Assembly: GCA_002279765.1 (NCBI GenBank)
Contig: NCCR01000086.1
Coordinates: 1 to 19,703 of the forward strand
Direction: 5' to 3'
Source of the DNA: Verrucomicrobia bacterium 12-59-8
Lineage (GTDB): Bacteria; Verrucomicrobiota; Verrucomicrobiae; Verrucomicrobiales; Verrucomicrobiaceae
Length of the DNA: 19,703 nucleotides
This document shows, piece after piece, positions 5,063 through 19,703 of the stretch (its first letter is position 1; each line of letters opens with the position of its first letter). The notes under the pieces are model-generated. The model did no database searches, had not been told where the DNA came from, and was given only the letters and a program-made list of their open reading frames with translations. Position numbers and translations under genes: made by a program.

Positions 5063-6532
5063 TCAGAAATCGAGGTAGATCTCCGCGCGGCGGTTGTGGC
5101 TGCGGCCTTCGGGATCGTCAGTGCCGTCGGATTTTTTGTTGGGGCTGAGTGGCTGGGCTTTGCCGAGGCCGGTGGTCTCCACCTGATCGGCAGGAACGCC
5201 GAGGACGGCAAGCTGCTGCTTCACGGCCTCCGCACGACCGCGTGAAAGGCGGATGTTGTAGTCATCCTCGCCTTTTTCATCGGTGTGACCGGCGATGCGC
5301 AGCTTCTTGGAAGGGTCCGCCTTCATGAGTGCGGAGATGACTTCGAGCTGCTTCAGCGCACGGGGATGCAGCTCAGCGCGGTCATATTCAAAGTAGAGGG
5401 CGAGCGATTCACCGCCCTTGGGGTTCTTCACGATGGGGGTGTAGGGCACGCCGAGCTTCGAGGCGCTTTTGGCAAAGGAACCGAGGATGTCGGAGAGATT
5501 GAGCCCCACGATTTTCCACGGCTGGGCGATGTCTGCGCGCTTGAGTTCCACGCCGAATTCGGTGTTTTGCTGGAGCGACTCCGACTGCACCTGGGCAATG
5601 ACCCAGGAGACTTCAGGATTGGCGATGGTAACGATGAGCGGCTTGGCCGAATTCAAGGAATACTGGCCTTCTTCAAATACGATGCAGAGGCCGAGGAGTC
5701 GCTCGACCGGCACTTTTTTGTCATCGACAAAAGCACGTGCGGCGGTGAAGTCGTGCTTCAGGAGGTGGCGGACAAAATCACTGGCAAAGGCTAACGCGTC
5801 GGTGCCGTCTTCAACTGTGAAAAGCGGCTTCATGGCGGCGGCGGTGGTAGGGGCCGGTGCTGGAGCGACAGGTGTGCCTGCGGTGGGAACCGCAGGCGGC
5901 GCGGCGGACATGGCCGCGATGGCACTGCTCATGGCCTTGGGCAGGGTGGCTTTGGCGACTTTCCAGCCCATGTGCTCGTCACGCTCCAGATCCAGCTGCA
6001 TGCGCACGGTTTCCTGCGAACCGGGCATGACAAAGGGGAGGGTGATGCGGGTGCGGTTTTCGACAAGGCCAAGGAGTTCCACCTGATCTTCCGTGGCAGG
6101 TTTATAGCCCATGGCGGCGAGTTTTTCAAAGAGCTTGGCGGCACTGTCAGACTGATTTGCATCTGAGGCGGCTGCGAGCTTGCCTGCCATGGCAAAATCA
6201 CCCGTGGTGAGGCTGCGAACCAATTGCCTGCCCAGATCCAGAGGGCGGGCAAAGGCAAAGGCCGGCGGTGCGGGCTTCGGCGGAGCCGGTGGCGTGACCA
6301 TGGGCGGCGGCGTGGCGGGAACTGCCGGTGCGGCAGGCTTGGCGGCGTCAGCCCCTGCTTTGGCGGGAGCGGCATCTCCAGCTGCAGCGTCCTTTTGGGC
6401 CTGCATTTTCTTTTGGGTGAACAGAAAGAAGATGGCGGTGCTCAGCGCAAGCGCGGCAACGACGATGATGACTGGCACGAGACTGCCGCCGAAAACGGAG
6501 CGGGGAGGGGTGGAGCGGGGCGGGATTTGCAT
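5063..6532 (-). CDS. OmpA-domain peptidoglycan-binding protein, inner-membrane anchored
   Basis: 489 residues from the ATG at 6532. Residues 16-40 are a hydrophobic segment with no clear signal-peptidase site, so it probably works as an inner-membrane anchor. A Pro/Ala/Lys-rich periplasmic stretch (about 42-95) follows, then two poorly characterised repeats that resemble each other: F-A-R-P-L-D-L-G-R-Q-L-V-R-S near 95 and F-A-S-D-F-V-R-H-L-L near 235. The C-terminal 115 residues are an OmpA/MotB domain with G-H-T-D-E-K-G, N-I-R-L-S-R-G-R-A-E-A-V and N-R-R-A-E-I, including the Asp and Arg used to bind diaminopimelate. Its likely role is tethering the membrane to the cell wall. The M23 peptidase gene lies 85 bases upstream on the same strand, so the two may form an operon acting on peptidoglycan. 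Confidence 0.87.
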   Translation of the reverse strand: MQIPPRSTPPRSVFGGSLVPVIIVVAALALSTAIFFLFTQKKMQAQKDAAAGDAAPAKAGADAAKPAAPAVPATPPPMVTPPAPPKPAPPAFAFARPLDLGRQLVRSLTTGDFAMAGKLAAASDANQSDSAAKLFEKLAAMGYKPATEDQVELLGLVENRTRITLPFVMPGSQETVRMQLDLERDEHMGWKVAKATLPKAMSSAIAAMSAAPPAVPTAGTPVAPAPAPTTAAAMKPLFTVEDGTDALAFASDFVRHLLKHDFTAARAFVDDKKVPVERLLGLCIVFEEGQYSLNSAKPLIVTIANPEVSWVIAQVQSESLQQNTEFGVELKRADIAQPWKIVGLNLSDILGSFAKSASKLGVPYTPIVKNPKGGESLALYFEYDRAELHPRALKQLEVISALMKADPSKKLRIAGHTDEKGEDDYNIRLSRGRAEAVKQQLAVLGVPADQVETTGLGKAQPLSPNKKSDGTDDPEGRSHNRRAEIYLDF

Positions 6533-6617
6533 AGCCGGGGGTAAGCTGTCCTAGAATAGCAGCAAAGATGCCACCACGGGGGGCGATGAATCAAGGTCTA
6601 TTATGCGCCGGGCGTGC

Positions 6618-7472
6618 TCAGCGTTTTTCGTCGGTGGCGGTCGTGGTCTGGCCGGCACGCATCTTGGCTTTCAGGCGTGACCAGAAGTCATCATCCTGTT
6701 TTGGCTCGTCCTTGCCCGTGCCGGAGCCGTTTTTGAAGGAGGGTACATCCACACTGGCGGTGCGCGCGCCATCGCTGCTGGTGTCCGCCAGGGCCCGGCC
6801 ATAGGGTGCGAAATTGTTTACGGGCACGTCGTACTTCTGCATGCTCGAGGGCAGGACGCGGCGCGCGTTGATGAAAGCGGTCGGGCTGTAGTAATTGGAG
6901 GAATCCCGCGCGAACTGGGAGCGGTTCATGCCGATGTGCAGATTCTTGCGCACTTCCAGATGCAAATGCACGGCGTACATGCCGTTGTTGCCACCCATCG
7001 TTCCGACGATCTGGCCTTTCTCGACGAGGTCGTGCAGCTTCACTTTGCGCTCATGGAGGTGACCGTACAGGGAGTCCACCATGGCGATTTTGCCATCGGC
7101 CTCGCGGAAAATATGACGGACCAAGATGCAGTTGCCCCAGCCGACACCGATGTTTTGGGAGAAAATCACGACACCACGACCGATGGAATAGATCGGTGCC
7201 CCGAGGTCGGTGTCACCGCCGCCGCGGCCGTTCCAGTCCTCACCCAGATGGCCGTTGGGCCAGTAGCCGCGTGCTTTGTAGAAGCCGTCGGCGTCCGGCT
7301 TGCCCACAGGAAAATCAAAGCCATCGGCTAATCGCACGCGCAGCCTTGAGCCGGACTGTGCGGCTGCATTCAGGGTCATCACCAAGGCGATGCAGGCACA
7401 CATCACCACCTGCCACCAAGAAAAATGGCGGTTGAACAATGGTACGGATGAATGGGAGGCACTGGCTGGCAT
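6618..7472 (-). CDS. M23 (LytM-type) metallopeptidase family protein, secreted
   Basis: 284 residues from the ATG at 7472. An upstream TTG (7508) and an internal ATG (7403) are alternatives, and none has a Shine-Dalgarno. From the 7472 start, a hydrophobic segment at about 19-37 ending A-A-A-Q looks like a signal peptide. The zinc-site motifs of M23 endopeptidases are present: H-x-x-x-D (H75...D79 in G-H-L-G-E-D), Y-G-H-L-H (H128), and H-L-H (H149/H151). The enzyme should cleave peptide cross-links of peptidoglycan in the periplasm. The C-terminal 80 residues are charged and low in complexity, without a recognised domain. Placed before the OmpA-domain gene and divergent from uppP, it belongs to a cell-envelope neighbourhood. 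Confidence 0.87.
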   Translation of the reverse strand: MPASASHSSVPLFNRHFSWWQVVMCACIALVMTLNAAAQSGSRLRVRLADGFDFPVGKPDADGFYKARGYWPNGHLGEDWNGRGGGDTDLGAPIYSIGRGVVIFSQNIGVGWGNCILVRHIFREADGKIAMVDSLYGHLHERKVKLHDLVEKGQIVGTMGGNNGMYAVHLHLEVRKNLHIGMNRSQFARDSSNYYSPTAFINARRVLPSSMQKYDVPVNNFAPYGRALADTSSDGARTASVDVPSFKNGSGTGKDEPKQDDDFWSRLKAKMRAGQTTTATDEKR

Positions 7473-7660
7473 GCCGAAGGGAGGTGATCGTAGTCGAAAA
7501 CGTTGCAAAGGCCAGCCTGAAAACCATTGCTGTGGAAGAGATTGGCGGCTTGCTGCGAATTATCAGGTTCAATGCATTGAGTGAAGTGCGGGGGCTTGCA
7601 AACTGCGCCGCCCGCCTGATTGTTCTCTATCCTTTACCAAAACCCCTCCCTATTCCCGTC

Positions 7661-8464
7661 ATGCCCGATTGGCTCGCGATCATTCTCCTCGGCATCATCG
7701 AAGGTGTCACCGAATTCCTGCCCATCTCATCCACAGGGCACCTGCTGATCCCGCAAAATCTGCATTGGCTGCCGCAGAAAAGCGATCTGTTCAATGTAGT
7801 GATTCAGAGCGGTGCCGTCCTCGCGGTGCTGGCGGTGTTCTCCCAGCGGCTGAAACATCTGGCATCCACCCTAGGAGAGGCGACCACGAGGGATTATCTG
7901 GCAAAGCTGTTTGTGGCGTTCTGCATCACGGCAGTGGGTGGTTTGCTGCTTAAAAAGTTCGGCGTCAAGCTGCCGGAGACGATCCCGCCGGTGGCTTGGG
8001 CCACCTTGATCGGCGGATTGATCATTCTTGTGCTGGAGTTTTTGCACAAAGGTAAAACGGGTACGGCGCACATCACCTGGGCGGTGGTGGTCGCCGTGGC
8101 GCTGGCGCAATTGCTGGCGGCGGTGTTTCCCGGCACCTCGCGCTCGGGGGCCAGCATCCTGATGGCGCTGGCCTTTGGCGTGTCACGGCCTGCCGCCACG
8201 GAGTTTTCGTTCCTGCTGGGCATCCCCACACTGATGGCAGCCGGGGCGTTCAAAATTCTCTCCGCGATCAAGGACGGTGAGGCGGGGCAGGAAGACTGGG
8301 GCATGGTCGTACTCGGCACCGTGGTTTCCGCCGTCTTCGCCTTCATCGTGGTGAAGTGGCTCATTCGTTTTGTACAGGGGCACACGTTCAATGGTTTTGC
8401 GTGGTATCGCATCGCGCTTGGTAGTGCGCTTTTGGTATGGGTTTGGAATGGAGGAGGGAACTGA
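7661..8464 (+). CDS. uppP: Undecaprenyl-diphosphate phosphatase UppP (BacA)
   Basis: 267 residues from the ATG at 7661, the usual family length. The frame is open much further upstream, but translation starting there would add a non-homologous leader. The integral membrane protein shows both catalytic signatures: I-I-E-G-V-T-E-F-L-P-I-S-S-T-G-H (residues 12-27) and P-G-T-S-R-S-G (157-163, with the essential Arg at 161). It dephosphorylates undecaprenyl diphosphate to recycle the lipid carrier for peptidoglycan and other surface polymers, and it gives bacitracin tolerance. It heads a plus-strand series; the DUF2062 gene begins 2 bases after its stop, so the two are very probably co-transcribed. 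Confidence 0.95.
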   Translation: MPDWLAIILLGIIEGVTEFLPISSTGHLLIPQNLHWLPQKSDLFNVVIQSGAVLAVLAVFSQRLKHLASTLGEATTRDYLAKLFVAFCITAVGGLLLKKFGVKLPETIPPVAWATLIGGLIILVLEFLHKGKTGTAHITWAVVVAVALAQLLAAVFPGTSRSGASILMALAFGVSRPAATEFSFLLGIPTLMAAGAFKILSAIKDGEAGQEDWGMVVLGTVVSAVFAFIVVKWLIRFVQGHTFNGFAWYRIALGSALLVWVWNGGGN

Positions 8465-15114: not shown

Positions 15115-15729
15115 TCAGGGCCGCACCGTGACGGGAGTGCCTTTGGCGACGTTGTTGTAAAAAATGGCCGCCATGTGCGGTGGCATGCGCACGCAGCCAT
15201 GCGAGGCGGCATAGCCGGGGAGGAAGCCCTCATGCATACCGATGCCTCCAACGAAGCGCATGAAATGATGCATTTTGGAGCCTTCAAACCGTGTGCCGGG
15301 CGGTGGCTTGTCCTTGGTGACGTCAACGTTGGCCACGACGACGTTGCCCGCACCATCCACAAAGTCGCCGTAGAGGTTGGATTTGTGCCACTGGTCCTTC
15401 TCGAAGACCTTGAATTTGCCGGTGGTGGTCGCATGCCGTTCGTCGCCGGTGGAAAGTGCAGAGACACCGGCGAGTGCGCCGCCTTTGTAAAAGTAGGCCT
15501 TCTGATCGCTGATGTCGATGACGATACTGGGGGCCCCAGACATGCCGTCACCATCCCAGTAGGAGTCCTGGTCGGCGTTGTACAACGCGGAATGCGGGAC
15601 GGTTCCAACAGAGAAGGCTTCGAGGTACTGGGTCTGTCCACGAGAACCCGAACTCTGGCAGGATGCCAGCAGTGCGAGGGCGGATAGAAGGGCGAGGCGG
15701 ACGGCTTGGGGGATCACCAATTGACTCAT
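15115..15729 (-). CDS. L,D-transpeptidase (YkuD domain) lipoprotein
   Basis: 204 residues from the ATG at 15729. The frame is open further upstream, but this start puts a lipoprotein signal peptide at the N-terminus, with lipobox L-A-S-C and lipidated Cys24. The YkuD domain spans about 65-204 and contains S-I-V-I-D-I-S-D-Q-K-A-Y-F near 68-80. The catalytic motif is G-M-H-E-G-F followed by A-S-H-G-C-V-R-M (His166, Cys179, Arg181). The enzyme is expected to form 3-3 cross-links in peptidoglycan or to attach proteins to it, in the periplasm. It lies 75 bases downstream of the damaged trxB and 21 bases upstream of the rhodanese gene, all on the minus strand. The frameshifted trxB reading frame runs over its beginning. 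Confidence 0.93.
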   Translation of the reverse strand: MSQLVIPQAVRLALLSALALLASCQSSGSRGQTQYLEAFSVGTVPHSALYNADQDSYWDGDGMSGAPSIVIDISDQKAYFYKGGALAGVSALSTGDERHATTTGKFKVFEKDQWHKSNLYGDFVDGAGNVVVANVDVTKDKPPPGTRFEGSKMHHFMRFVGGIGMHEGFLPGYAASHGCVRMPPHMAAIFYNNVAKGTPVTVRP

Positions 15730-15804
15730 GCGTAGGGGGTACGTGTGTGCGGCGGGAAAAGCCGCCACCATATGCCGCGCCACAGCGCGTCTGTCCAGCA
15801 TCAA

Positions 15805-15903
15805 TCAATGCACGCCGTGGTTGGCGAGGAAGCGTTCCGCCTCCAGTGCGGCGGCGCAGCCCTGCCCGGCGGCGGTGATGGCCTGGCGATAGACGTGGTC
15901 GGC
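15805..15903. repeat. 99-base direct repeat, copy 1 (last 33 codons of trxB)
   Basis: Identical over all 99 bases to 19605-19703, in the same orientation. On the minus strand it reads the final 32 residues of thioredoxin reductase plus the TGA, beginning [10 protein letters not shown] and ending L-A-N-H-G-V-H. The left edge coincides with the stop codon and the right edge with the breakpoint in trxB. Bases flanking the two copies on the left are unrelated. Confidence 0.97.
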
Positions 15904-16669
15904 TTTCGTCGGTATCGACGAGATCGCTCAGGAACTGGCCGTTTGGCACGTGGCCGATGGCGACGAAGACGCATTTCAGCTCCAGCTCGCTCTTCTCACC
16001 GGTGACGAGGTTTTCGAGCGTCACTGCCCGCATCTCGCCCTTCTCGTCGGTGAGGTATTCGCTGACCGTGGAGTTCCAGACGGGCTTGATCTTTGGATTG
16101 GCGAGGGCGCGGTCGGCCATGATTTTCGAGGCTCGCAGGGAGTCGCGGCGATGGATCAAATAGACGGTGCTGGCGAATTTGGTGAGGAATCCGGCTTCTT
16201 CGCAGGCGCTGTCGCCGCCGCCGATGACGCAGACGGGGACGTTGCGGTAAAAGGCACCGTCACAGGTGGCGCAGCTGGTCAAACCACGGCCGATGAGGCC
16301 CTTTTCACCCGGCAGGCCGAGATGCTTGGGGGAGGCACCCGTGGCAACGATCACCGTGTGGGTCTCATAGACAGTGCCGCCTTCGGTGTGGACTTCGAAG
16401 TGGCCAGTAGCGGTCTTTTTGACGCTGCTGACGAGGGAGTACTCGATGCGTGCGCCGAACTTTTCGGCCTGGGTCTGCATGTTCATCATCAGCTCAGGCC
16501 CCATGATGCCGTTGGGGAAGCCGGGGAAGTTTTCGACTTCAGTGGTCGTGGTGAGCTGCCCGCCGGGCATGTTGCCGGAGAGGATCAGGGGCTTCAGGTT
16601 GGCACGGCCGGTGTAGATGGCCGCCGTGTAGCCGGCGCAGCCGGTGCCGATGATGATGACGTTTTCCAT
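15805..16669 (-). pseudogene. trxB: Thioredoxin reductase with internal deletion and frameshift
   Basis: The ATG at 16669 starts a clear TrxB: G-T-G-C-A-G-Y-T-A-A (FAD-binding, 8-17), G-G-Q-L-T-T-T-T-E-V-E-N (36-47), the redox pair C133-A-T-C136, and the NADPH site G-G-G-D-S-A-C-E-E-A (150-159). Homology runs to D-T-D-E at residue 255, then the frame breaks at 15904/15903. The remaining 33 codons are present in another frame and match the true C-terminus. Compared with the family, about 26 residues are missing, including the conserved G-D-C/V-x FAD motif, and the frame shifts. As written, the protein would be inactive and run on to 15548. It sits divergent from arsR and would normally recycle thioredoxin for ArsC. 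The breakpoint equals a repeat boundary, so misassembly is a real possibility. Confidence 0.85.
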
Positions 16670-16730
16670 GAGAAAGGGAGGTTGGGGCGTGGTGAATGAA
16701 TGAAAAGAAAACGCTTGCTGCCAAGCAACT

Positions 16731-16758
16731 ATTTGGTTATTTAGCCAAATAACCAAAT
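16731..16758. promoter_or_regulatory. Perfect inverted-repeat operator between trxB and arsR
   Basis: ATTTGGTTATTT (16731-16742) is the exact reverse complement of AAATAACCAAAT (16747-16758), with AGCC between. The element is strikingly AT-rich for this sequence. It ends 5 bases before the arsR ATG (16764) and lies 61 bases from the trxB ATG (16669). ArsR/SmtB repressors bind dyads of this kind, so autoregulation of arsR and co-control of the divergent trxB are inferred. Weak promoter-like boxes overlap it in both directions: on the minus strand TTGGTT, 17 bases, AATAGT; on the plus strand TTGCTG, 17 bases, TATTTA. A second, smaller dyad GCTTG-CTGC-CAAGC lies at 16713-16726. Confidence 0.75.
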
Positions 16759-16763
16759 TAATA

Positions 16764-17075
16764 ATGCCTGTCAGCAAATCAGTTTCCAGCAAGCGCGCCG
16801 CCGTAATCAAGGCGCTGGCACACCCCTCACGGCTGCTTATCGCCGAGGCGCTGATGGAAGGCGAGATGTGCGTTTGTGATCTGAAGGACCTCGTGGGCGC
16901 GGACATGTCCACCGTGTCCAAGCACCTGAGTATGATGCGTCAGGCCGGGGTGCTGGTCTCGGACAAGCGCGGGCTGAACATCTACTACCGTCTGGCCTGC
17001 GACTGCCTGGGGGATTTCCTGCGCTGCCTGGACCAGCTGGCACCGAAGAAGGCCACCACCAAACCCTGCTGCTAA
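16764..17075 (+). CDS. arsR: ArsR/SmtB-family arsenic-responsive repressor
   Basis: 103 residues from the ATG at 16764. It is a compact winged-helix protein: A-L-A-H-P-S-R-L-L-I-A-E-A-L (17-30), then E-M-C-V-C-D-L (34-40), the ArsR metalloid-binding site with Cys36 and Cys38, and the recognition helix S-T-V-S-K-H-L-S (49-56). Further cysteines at 79, 81, 88 and a terminal C-C pair (102-103) could add As(III) ligands. It should repress the operon until arsenite binds. A perfect inverted repeat lies just upstream of its start codon. The DUF6428, channel, arsC and outer-membrane-like genes follow on the same strand with gaps of 9-35 bases, consistent with one operon. Confidence 0.93.
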   Translation: MPVSKSVSSKRAAVIKALAHPSRLLIAEALMEGEMCVCDLKDLVGADMSTVSKHLSMMRQAGVLVSDKRGLNIYYRLACDCLGDFLRCLDQLAPKKATTKPCC

Positions 17076-17090
17076 CTGCTTTTTCCTACC

Positions 17091-17579
17091 ATGAACATCA
17101 CCGAATTTCTCTCCCTCCTAAATGAGCATGCGGACAAGCCGCTGCTGTTTGTGCTGCCGGATGGCGGCATGATCCCAGCGCACTATCACGTCACGGAAGT
17201 GGGCCATGTGGCGAAGAACTTCATCGACTGCGGCGGGACACGGCGCGAGTTGGAGACCTGCCTGCTGCAAACGTGGGTGCATGATGATGTGGACCACCGT
17301 CTGCTCTCAGGCAAGCTGGCCACTATCTTCGAACGTGCGGGCGATGTGCTGCCGCATCACGAGCTGCCGGTTGAGATCGAATATGAGGACGGTGTGGTGG
17401 CGCAATTTCCGGTGGAGAGCGTGGAGATTATTGATGGCGCGCTCGCCTTTCACCTGGGCCTGAAGCACACCGACTGCCTCGCGCGAGGCATTTGCCTGCC
17501 CGGTGAATGCGCGCCCACGCCTGCACCGCAAATCGCAGTGGCAGCCTCTTGCTGCACGCCCGGATCCAAATGCTGCTGA
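17091..17579 (+). CDS. DUF6428 family protein of the arsenic operon, Cys-rich tail
   Basis: 162 residues from the ATG at 17091, 15 bases after arsR. The body (1-130) carries a conserved-looking core: I-P-A-H-Y-H-V-T-E-V-G (28-38), D-C-G-G (46-49), C-L-L-Q-T-W (57-62) and D-H-R-L-L-S-G-K-L (68-76). I recognise it as DUF6428, a family I recall beside arsR and arsC in Bacteroidetes and Planctomycetes; its function is not established. The C-terminus holds C129, C135, C140, and then C-C and C-C pairs at 154-155 and 161-162. This suggests binding of a thiophilic metalloid, for example as an arsenite chaperone or sink, but that is inference. No signal peptide is present, so it is cytosolic. Confidence 0.75.
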   Translation: MNITEFLSLLNEHADKPLLFVLPDGGMIPAHYHVTEVGHVAKNFIDCGGTRRELETCLLQTWVHDDVDHRLLSGKLATIFERAGDVLPHHELPVEIEYEDGVVAQFPVESVEIIDGALAFHLGLKHTDCLARGICLPGECAPTPAPQIAVAASCCTPGSKCC

Positions 17580-17588
17580 ACCCCCGCC

Positions 17589-18266
17589 ATGAAAAAAATC
17601 CTCGCTGAACTGCTGGGCACCTTCACACTCGTCTTTGCGGGCACGGGTGCCATCGTCATCAATGCCGCGAGCCACGGGGCCATCGGCCACGCCGGCATCG
17701 CCCTCACCTTTGGGCTCGTCGTGCTGGCGATGATTTATACTTTTGGCGATGTCAGCGGCGCGCATTTGAACCCGGCCGTCACGATCGCCTTTGCCGCGGC
17801 ACGGCGTTTTGCGTGGCGCGATGTGCCGGGCTATCTTGGCGCGCAGATCACCGGTGCGCTGGCAGCCAGTCTGCTGCTGCGTGTGCTCTATCCGCAGGAT
17901 GCCACCCTTGGGGCCACTCTGCCTTCAGGGTCTGAGATGCAGAGTTTTGTACTGGAACTGGTGCTCACCGCCATTCTGATGCTGACGATTTTGAGCGTGT
18001 CCACGGGAGCCAAGGAAAAGGGCAGCACCGCTGGCATCGCCATAGGAGGCGTGATCGCCCTGGAGGCCATGTTTGCCGGACCGGCCTGTGGAGCCTCGAT
18101 GAACCCCGTGCGCTCGCTCGCGCCTGCGCTGGTCTCCGGGCATCTGGAGCATCTGTGGCTCTACCTCGCCGCGACTGTGCTCGGCGCCCTGATTGCCGTG
18201 CCGCTGTGCATCGGCGTGCGTGACAGCGGCTGCTGCGGTGGCCGGTGCATGCCTGCCGTCGAATGA
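17589..18266 (+). CDS. Aquaporin/MIP-family channel of the arsenic operon (AqpS-like)
   Basis: 225 residues, starting 9 bases after the DUF6428 stop. Six hydrophobic helices are visible. The first half-helix motif is the standard H-L-N-P-A-V-T (N61-P-A63). The second reads S-M-N-P-V-R-S (N172-P-V174-R175), a valine in place of the usual alanine. The C-terminus ends with cysteines (S-G-C-C-G-G-R-C, 213-220). In Sinorhizobium meliloti the aquaglyceroporin AqpS in an arsR-aqpS-arsC operon lets arsenite made by ArsC leave the cell. The same role is inferred here because arsC follows and no ArsB or Acr3 pump is present. A seven-T run lies in the 35-base gap before arsC, without a convincing stem. 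Confidence 0.88.
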
Positions 18267-18301
18267 CTTGGTCCCATTTTTTTAGAGCGCCACTTCCTCC
18301 C

Positions 18302-18808
18302 ATGAAACCACCCACCATCCTCATTCTCTGCACCGGCAACTCCTGCCGCTCCCACCTTGCCGAAGGTATCCTGCGTCGCGCATTGGGCGATGACTACACC
18401 ATCGCCAGCGCCGGGTCCAAGCCTGCTGGCTACGTTCATCCTCTTGGCATCAAGGCCATGGAGGAGATCGGCATCGACATCTCGGCACATCATTCCAAGC
18501 ATCTCAATGAATTCCTCAACCAGGATATCGAAACCGTTATCACCGTCTGTGGCAATGCCGACCAGGCCTGCCCGATGTTTCCCGGCCAGGTGAACCGCCA
18601 CCACTGGGGCTTTGACGATCCCGCGCACGCCACCGGGACCGAGGAGGAGCAGATGCAGGTCTTCCGCCGCGTGCGCGATGAGATCCGCGAAGTGTTCGAG
18701 TCCTACGCCTCCGGCAGGCAGAATCAGGCCGATCTGGCCAAGACGGTGCCTCCGCTCGCTGCGCTGGCCTACAGCGACGGGCATCAGGATGAAAACAGGA
18801 AGAAGTGA
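18302..18808 (+). CDS. arsC: Arsenate reductase ArsC, thioredoxin-dependent (LMW-phosphatase fold)
   Basis: 168 residues from the ATG at 18302. The phosphatase P-loop C-T-G-N-S-C-R-S begins at Cys10. The redox cysteines of the Staphylococcus pI258-type enzyme are in place: Cys83 and Cys90 in [10 protein letters not shown], with the catalytic Asp in W-G-F-D-D-P (105-106). The enzyme reduces arsenate to arsenite by a triple-cysteine relay, and the resulting disulfide is restored by thioredoxin and thioredoxin reductase. This explains the divergent trxB in the same locus. The C-terminus is about 30 residues longer than the pI258 enzyme and hydrophilic. The upstream open frame from 18245 lacks family similarity and was not used. 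Confidence 0.95.
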
Positions 18809-18839
18809 AAAGTGGGGAGCCACATCTATCCGCACCGCC

Positions 18840-19529
18840 ATGAAAACCGCACCACACTTCCACATTCTGATGCTGGCCGTGTGTACCGCTGTGGTGCCTG
18901 TGTTTGGGACACCCAGCGGTCTGAACAACATCCCCACCGCTGACACTGTGCCGCACCGCACGGTGGCGGTGCAGTACTTCAGCAGCTTCGGTGGGGCGAA
19001 TCAGTTTGCCACGAGCGGGCCGGGCAAAACCTCAGACTGGGCGGGCTTCAAAACCGGGTGGGACTTCAAACCGCTGCATCTGGAGTGGGGTCTCGACAGC
19101 GTACTGGGCGCCGGCAACTCGGGGCCGCTGCTGCTGCAGACGAAGGCGCGGATTCAACCCTGGGAGGACGGCATGTTTGCGCTCGGTGTGGCCAGCGTGG
19201 CGCTGACGGACACAAAGCGTGCGGGAGATCCCTTTACCTACGCGATGCTGTGGCATGACTTCTGTCTCGTGCGCCTGCATGCGGGCTACGGCGTGCAAAC
19301 GCATGGCGACAGCTACCTCTTCGGCGTGGACCGCGCATGGAAGCTCTTTGGCCGCAATTTCAATCTGAACGCCGACATCGTGCAGTCGCGCAATCAGCAC
19401 GGCCTCATCACCGCTGTGGGTGCGAAGTTTGACCTGAGCAGGCACATCGTGCTGGAAACCTGGGCAAACTTTCCTGACCGCGACCGTGTGAGCGTCATTG
19501 CCAAGATCAATCTTGTGTTCACTTTTTGA
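18840..19529 (+). CDS. Predicted outer-membrane beta-barrel-like protein
   Basis: 229 residues from the ATG at 18840; the longer open frame upstream is a shadow within arsC. A signal peptide spans about 1-23 (hydrophobic I-L-M-L-A-V-C-T-A-V-V-P-V-F-G). The mature part alternates hydrophobic and polar residues in short strands rich in Gly, aromatic residues and Asp (for example Y-F-S-S-F-G-G and W-G-L-D-S-V-L-G). It ends F-T-F, the aromatic C-terminal residue typical of outer-membrane proteins inserted by BamA. I do not recognise a named family. It begins 31 bases after arsC and is probably the last gene of the ars operon; a role as an outer-membrane route for arsenicals is only a guess. Confidence 0.65.
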   Translation: MKTAPHFHILMLAVCTAVVPVFGTPSGLNNIPTADTVPHRTVAVQYFSSFGGANQFATSGPGKTSDWAGFKTGWDFKPLHLEWGLDSVLGAGNSGPLLLQTKARIQPWEDGMFALGVASVALTDTKRAGDPFTYAMLWHDFCLVRLHAGYGVQTHGDSYLFGVDRAWKLFGRNFNLNADIVQSRNQHGLITAVGAKFDLSRHIVLETWANFPDRDRVSVIAKINLVFTF

Positions 19530-19604
19530 GCGGTAGGAGAGATGAAGCTCAGGCGAATGCCATGGGCTGTTAGCCTTTTCTGTTGGCTGCCGTCACTTGC
19601 CCTC

Positions 19605-19703
19605 TCAATGCACGCCGTGGTTGGCGAGGAAGCGTTCCGCCTCCAGTGCGGCGGCGCAGCCCTGCCCGGCGGCGGTGATGGCCTGGCGATAGACGTGGTC
19701 GGC
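19605..19703. repeat. 99-base direct repeat, copy 2 (trxB 3' end at the window edge)
   Basis: Exact copy of 15805-15903. It occupies the very last bases of the window, 75 bases after the outer-membrane-like gene, and on the minus strand it encodes the final 32 residues and stop of TrxB. Whether an intact trxB continues beyond the edge cannot be seen. The 75-base spacer 19530-19604 shows no gene and no clear terminator. Confidence 0.97.

Follow-up and report, generated by a model that had tools for sequence, protein, structure and literature searches.

A 99-nt repeat most likely marks a second trxB gene beyond a small arsenic gene cluster at the end of a Verrucomicrobia contig

Main finding

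The window examined here, the whole 19,703-nt stretch of contig NCCR01000086.1 from Verrucomicrobia bacterium 12-59-8, ends in an exact 99-nt copy of the 3' end of a trxB gene that it also carries, broken, 3.8 kb before. This repeat most likely marks a true second trxB, separated from the first by a small arsenic (ars) gene cluster, at the point where the assembler halted, although an assembly flaw is possible. We give a probability of roughly 60 percent to the explanation proposed below: a real duplication of trxB around the ars genes, a contig broken at the second copy, and a deletion in the first copy that is either recent or a flaw of the assembly. The whole case is one of ordinary genome evolution together with ordinary assembly behaviour.

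The 99-nt repeat

Positions 15805-15903 and 19605-19703 agree at 100 percent identity over 99 nt, in direct orientation and at an offset of 3800, just as the preliminary description reported, and no other direct repeat family reaching 20 nt occurs anywhere in the window. The chance of an exact 99-nt match within 19.7 kb is negligible. On the left the repeat begins at the trxB stop codon (the gene lies on the minus strand), and the flanking bases differ, A at 15804 versus C at 19604. On the right, both edges fall where they had been said to fall: that of copy 1 is the break in trxB, and that of copy 2 is the final base of the window. The window contains no N, and its end, which we take to be the contig end as well, exactly repeats sequence from its interior. 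Copy 1 (15805..15903, minus strand) comprises the final 99 nt of trxB with the stop codon, encodes the C-terminal 32 residues of TrxB, and is 92 percent identical to the corresponding sequence in G001, the nearest genome compared. Copy 2 (19605..19703, minus strand), found by the repeat search, reaches the window's final base; the related genome G037 has an intact trxB at the same place, and the remainder of the copy 2 gene would lie beyond the window.

The broken trxB copy

The trxB body (15904..16669, minus strand; TIGR01292 and comparison with relatives) begins at the start codon and runs for 255 codons and 1 further nt; it is severed from the 3' end by the loss of 68 nt and a frameshift. 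It scores 309.9 bits against TIGR01292, under the cut-off of 343.45, and shares 93.7 percent DNA identity with G001. The missing stretch had been put at about 77-80 bases; it proves to be 68 nt, since exactly this much extra sequence stands between 15903 and 15904 in 20 of the 20 relatives compared (in G001 by direct measurement too). All 20 have a trxB of 933 nt with one stop, as against 766+99 nt (865 nt) in the window. Copy 1 joins the body out of frame at 15903/15904, and in this broken reading frame it resembles a pseudogene.

In its codons and residues it does not resemble one: neither the codon differences nor a comparison with 120 homologues revealed an excess of unusual residues, as relaxed constraint would leave. 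The body differs from G001 by 40 synonymous and 5 non-synonymous codons. Its private codon states relative to 10 near relatives (6 synonymous and 2 non-synonymous) are inside the range of those relatives. One residue at a conserved site is unseen among the 120 homologues, 43 of which have at least that many of their own. Of 8000 proteins scored against the frameshifted form, 120 were listed, and none of these is as long or covers over 80 percent of it. Because copy 1 lacks other decay, the deletion should be very recent or itself an assembly error, and a long-past loss is unlikely. The earlier advice not to trust the join at 15903/15904 is still valid.

Upstream of the body, BLAST match limits define a junction (16670..16763) between trxB upstream DNA, which is G001-like to about 16686, and arsR upstream DNA, which resembles the ars loci of relatives from about 16704. 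No listed match across 48 genomes of the genus spans both sides of the junction as it stands in the window.

The arsenic gene segment

Five open reading frames, all on the plus strand, lie between the two repeat copies. The first encodes an ArsR-type repressor (16764..17075; PF01022, NF033788). It is followed by a DUF6428 protein (17091..17579; PF20001, 148.3 bits), a major intrinsic protein (MIP), that is, an aquaporin-like channel (17589..18266; PF00230), and an ArsC (18302..18808; TIGR02691, PF01451) that is closest to the thioredoxin-type arsenate reductases while remaining under the equivalog cut-off (144.8 bits for TIGR02691, cut-off 174.3). The last is an ORF of 229 aa (18840..19529) recognised by blastn matches in the ars loci of relatives; Pfam and NCBIfam gave no match for it, and "porin" serves as a working label only. 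DUF6428, a family of unknown function whose gene here adjoins arsR, was matched in 40 of the 48 genus genomes. On the other side of trxB lies an L,D-transpeptidase (YkuD) gene, LDT (15115..15729, minus strand; PF03734), the downstream neighbour of trxB in many relatives. In some ars operons MIPs replace the other arsenite transporters; one survey found no further transporter in 18 of 18 (PMC4435449).

The trxB locus in related genomes

The surroundings of trxB were inspected in 25 of the 48 genus genomes. LDT is directly beside trxB, with no gene between, in ten (G001, G022, G015, G031, G023, G021, G041, G034, G019 and G012). Something is interposed in three: ars genes in G037, and a propeller gene in G036 and G030. 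LDT is located on a separate contig in four (G048, G045, G044 and G010) and is absent from the fetched stretch in eight (G013, G040, G009, G011, G014, G038, G035 and G026). Each outer junction of the window is known singly from this set, LDT to the trxB 3' end from G001 and others, and the ars ORF to the trxB end from G037.

The G001 locus (L083) shares with the window the order CorA, rhodanese, LDT, trxB, and its trxB body is 94 percent identical, but it has a single intact trxB beside LDT, and its ars genes are on another contig. G036 and G030 (L143 and L144) resemble the window in having a gene between LDT and trxB; theirs, however, encodes a beta-propeller/phosphoesterase protein of 829 or 815 aa (L143:3689-6178 and L144:5946-8393), and no trxB-like remnant was scored in the LDT-trxB interval of G036. 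The same propeller/phosphoesterase gene follows LDT in G048, close to a contig end (L156). In L018, L022 and L027 trxB is also close to arsR, but the order is trxB - ORF - arsR on one strand throughout, and the trxB body is just 76-79 percent identical at the DNA level. These diverged trxB genes beside ars genes are found at about 5990-7990 in both L018 and L022, and at about 2460-4460 in L027.

Among plasmids, 168 records matched 15700-19703, and none covers 80 percent at one place. The 20 listed of these 168 cover 18-22 percent, and the annotated feature, where one is named, is trxB. Among the best literature matches, judged by title, a trxB-ars-trxB arrangement was not found named.

A trxB remnant in G037

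G037 (L005/L145), of the same genus, provides the closest parallel. It has LDT, arsR-DUF6428-MIP-arsC-ORF and trxB in identical order and orientation, and at the position of the window's broken copy, between LDT and arsR, stands a trxB-like remnant. Unlike in the window, this left trxB has shrunk to tens of nt, and the contig continues past an intact right trxB. Its trxB upstream DNA resembles that of G001 (86 percent over 1328 nt). In the LDT-arsR spacer, the trxB 3' region is matched at 23 of 27 nt, and a second match, in the vicinity of the trxB start codon, agrees in 15 of 17 columns (one mismatch, one gap); the two overlap by 9 nt, the first running into the second. In 2000 dinucleotide shuffles the first score was never reached, the second was reached in 0.4 percent, and both together in none, although these figures and those that follow are somewhat favourable, the test having been designed after BLAST extension drew attention to the site. 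Across 748 windows of the same locus the corresponding counts are 0, 10 and 0, and neither score is reached by any of 15 other arsR upstream stretches. It would appear, from sequence comparison, that this spacer holds a decayed trxB remnant.

There is thus trxB sequence on both flanks of the ars genes in the window, as the repeat, and in G037, as an intact gene on one side and a remnant on the other. The G037 locus supports trxB on both sides of ars independently of how the window was assembled, and these bacteria probably once had the order LDT - trxB - ars genes - trxB. A single event common to the window and G037 does not follow, because neither of the spacers that bound the ars genes is detectably similar between the two (the score is reached in 226 and 289 of 1000 shuffles) and the ars-gene tree lacks a sister pairing. 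In that tree the window is clearly paired with neither G001 nor G037, and G037 is not its sister. The trxB body tree pairs the window with G001 (support 0.93), and the CorA-rhodanese-LDT tree pairs it with G037 (split support 0.895). Judging from these trees the histories are mixed, and we draw no firm line through them; the LDT-ars-trxB order may have arisen twice, separately in the window and in G037.

Assembly behaviour

The effect of such a repeat on assembly was followed in a toy de Bruijn graph built from random sequence, with k of 55, 77, 99 and 101 and the two trxB bodies set 6 percent apart. A real deletion combined with a 99-nt repeat gives a graph in which the path of the window is present at all four values of k. 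A true 99-nt repeat breaks the contig at k of 55, 77 and 99 alike; at k=101 the break is absent. With k of 55 or 77 the repeat is split off as a separate piece and the trxB bodies fragment too; with k=99 the repeat is where three pieces come together, so k=99 would best fit the unbroken trxB body of the window. The path of the window is missing from the graph when two intact copies share 167 nt (model M2) and when two strains are mixed (model M3). For the window to follow graph edges, both the trxB-arsR junction and the deletion must therefore be true; otherwise a wrong join is required.

Contig ends in related records show that such repeats are not rare. Exact repeats of at least 40 nt were found at 2 of 57 contig ends, a lower bound from ends picked by hand in named records only, with repeats sought inside the fetched stretch. 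These two, L004:8997-9060 (64 nt) and L043:1-164 (164 nt), are like the window in that the contig end repeats, exactly and in direct orientation, sequence from further inside, and unlike it in their short offsets. The preliminary description read the length of 99 as the sign of a k-mer size; with end repeats of 64 and 164 nt, and with the toy graph breaking at three values of k, it is no proof of that.

Explanation and alternatives

In the proposed explanation, the chromosome would read LDT - trxB copy 1 - arsR, DUF6428, MIP, arsC, ORF - trxB copy 2. The ars genes would have come between trxB and its former neighbour LDT through an event from which trxB emerged on either flank; a local duplication could do this, as could a circle bearing trxB and ars that integrated by a single crossover. 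The copies would be identical over at least the final 99 nt, and the contig would have stopped at the second because the assembler could not get beyond it. The 68-nt loss and frameshift would mean either that a redundant copy 1 lost sequence very recently or that the same assembly step introduced an error; copy 2, to go by G037, is probably the working gene. Duplication is favoured because five relatives (G001, G022, G015, G031 and G023) have trxB against LDT without ars genes, because G037 combines LDT, ars genes and an intact trxB with a remnant in the LDT-arsR spacer, and because the toy graph holds the window's path only with both the junction and the deletion; that exact repeats are met at other contig ends as well also agrees with it. 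It is weakened by the unmatched trxB-arsR junction among the matches listed for the 48 genus genomes, by a copy 1 body apparently under constraint, unlike an old dead copy, and by the frameshifted form having no counterpart of its length among the 120 proteins listed.

Within this explanation a serious contender as regards the deletion, though less likely than not, is that the duplication is real and the deletion false: two intact copies would share 167 nt, and the assembler would have skipped the shared piece on the assumption of an overlap of k. This would account jointly for the number 99 and the deletion point, and the absence of decay in copy 1 speaks for it too; in M2 at k=99, where the shared end is longer than k, the piece that ends with LDT halts exactly 99 nt into the repeat. 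The behaviour asked of the assembler is, however, an assumption, and the join would run along no graph edge.

A pure artefact with no duplication at all, an assembler (with k=99, say) having fused two strains, one with LDT/trxB and the other with ars/trxB, into a false contig, seems to us unlikely. The separate occurrence of each outer junction in relatives would suit it, as would the number 99, a usual k (one related contig is even named k99). Contigs in de Bruijn graphs overlap by k, by the formula in PMC9104695, and SPAdes repeat resolution is described as a common source of misassembly in PMC5481147. But M3, by construction, has no edge from the trxB 5' end to arsR and none over the 68-nt loss. 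The artefact also predicts no relative with trxB sequence between LDT and arsR, and the G037 spacer has it, supporting the junction. The preference of the preliminary description for a de Bruijn artefact is thus borne out in one part, the stop at the contig edge being probably an assembly effect, and not in the other, since the intact trxB and remnant of G037 make the repeat itself probably biological. The second trxB that it named as an alternative fits better than a pure artefact, given the junctions in relatives and that remnant.

A broader form of the duplication reading can be offered as speculation: the trxB-LDT junction might be a recurrent landing site in the genus, where ars genes enter by recombination at trxB, leaving two copies of which the arsR-adjacent one is then lost, and the window would be caught at an intermediate stage. 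The idea draws on the ars genes of the window and G037 and the propeller gene of G036 and G030.

That the 3.8-kb trxB - ars unit is amplified in tandem or forms a circle is very improbable. The contig end does re-enter the unit at its start, as a graph loop would give, but G037, the sole relative seen with ars here, has one unit in the fetched stretch, and were all copies alike the path need presumably not stop at 19703. Least probable of all is an integrating element: some integrases duplicate the 3' end of their target gene, and the repeat begins precisely at the trxB stop codon, but among the five ORFs that we treated as genes in this segment there is no recognised integrase (four belong to other families, one to none), and the trxB body sits within the unit.

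Meaning of the duplication

Relatives alone can help to tell a repeat at a contig end from a true duplication, if each junction is sought in other genomes together with a decayed remnant. The case also carries a warning for annotation, in that trxB should not be recorded as lost from this organism when a working copy is probably just beyond the contig edge. Thioredoxin-type ArsC takes electrons via thioredoxin and TrxB, so the ArsC of this cluster, if it behaves as its nearest relatives do, would be supplied by the product of the gene that flanks it. If the duplication is true, the arrival of an arsenate-reduction cluster would have been tied to the very gene whose product feeds electrons to the reductase.
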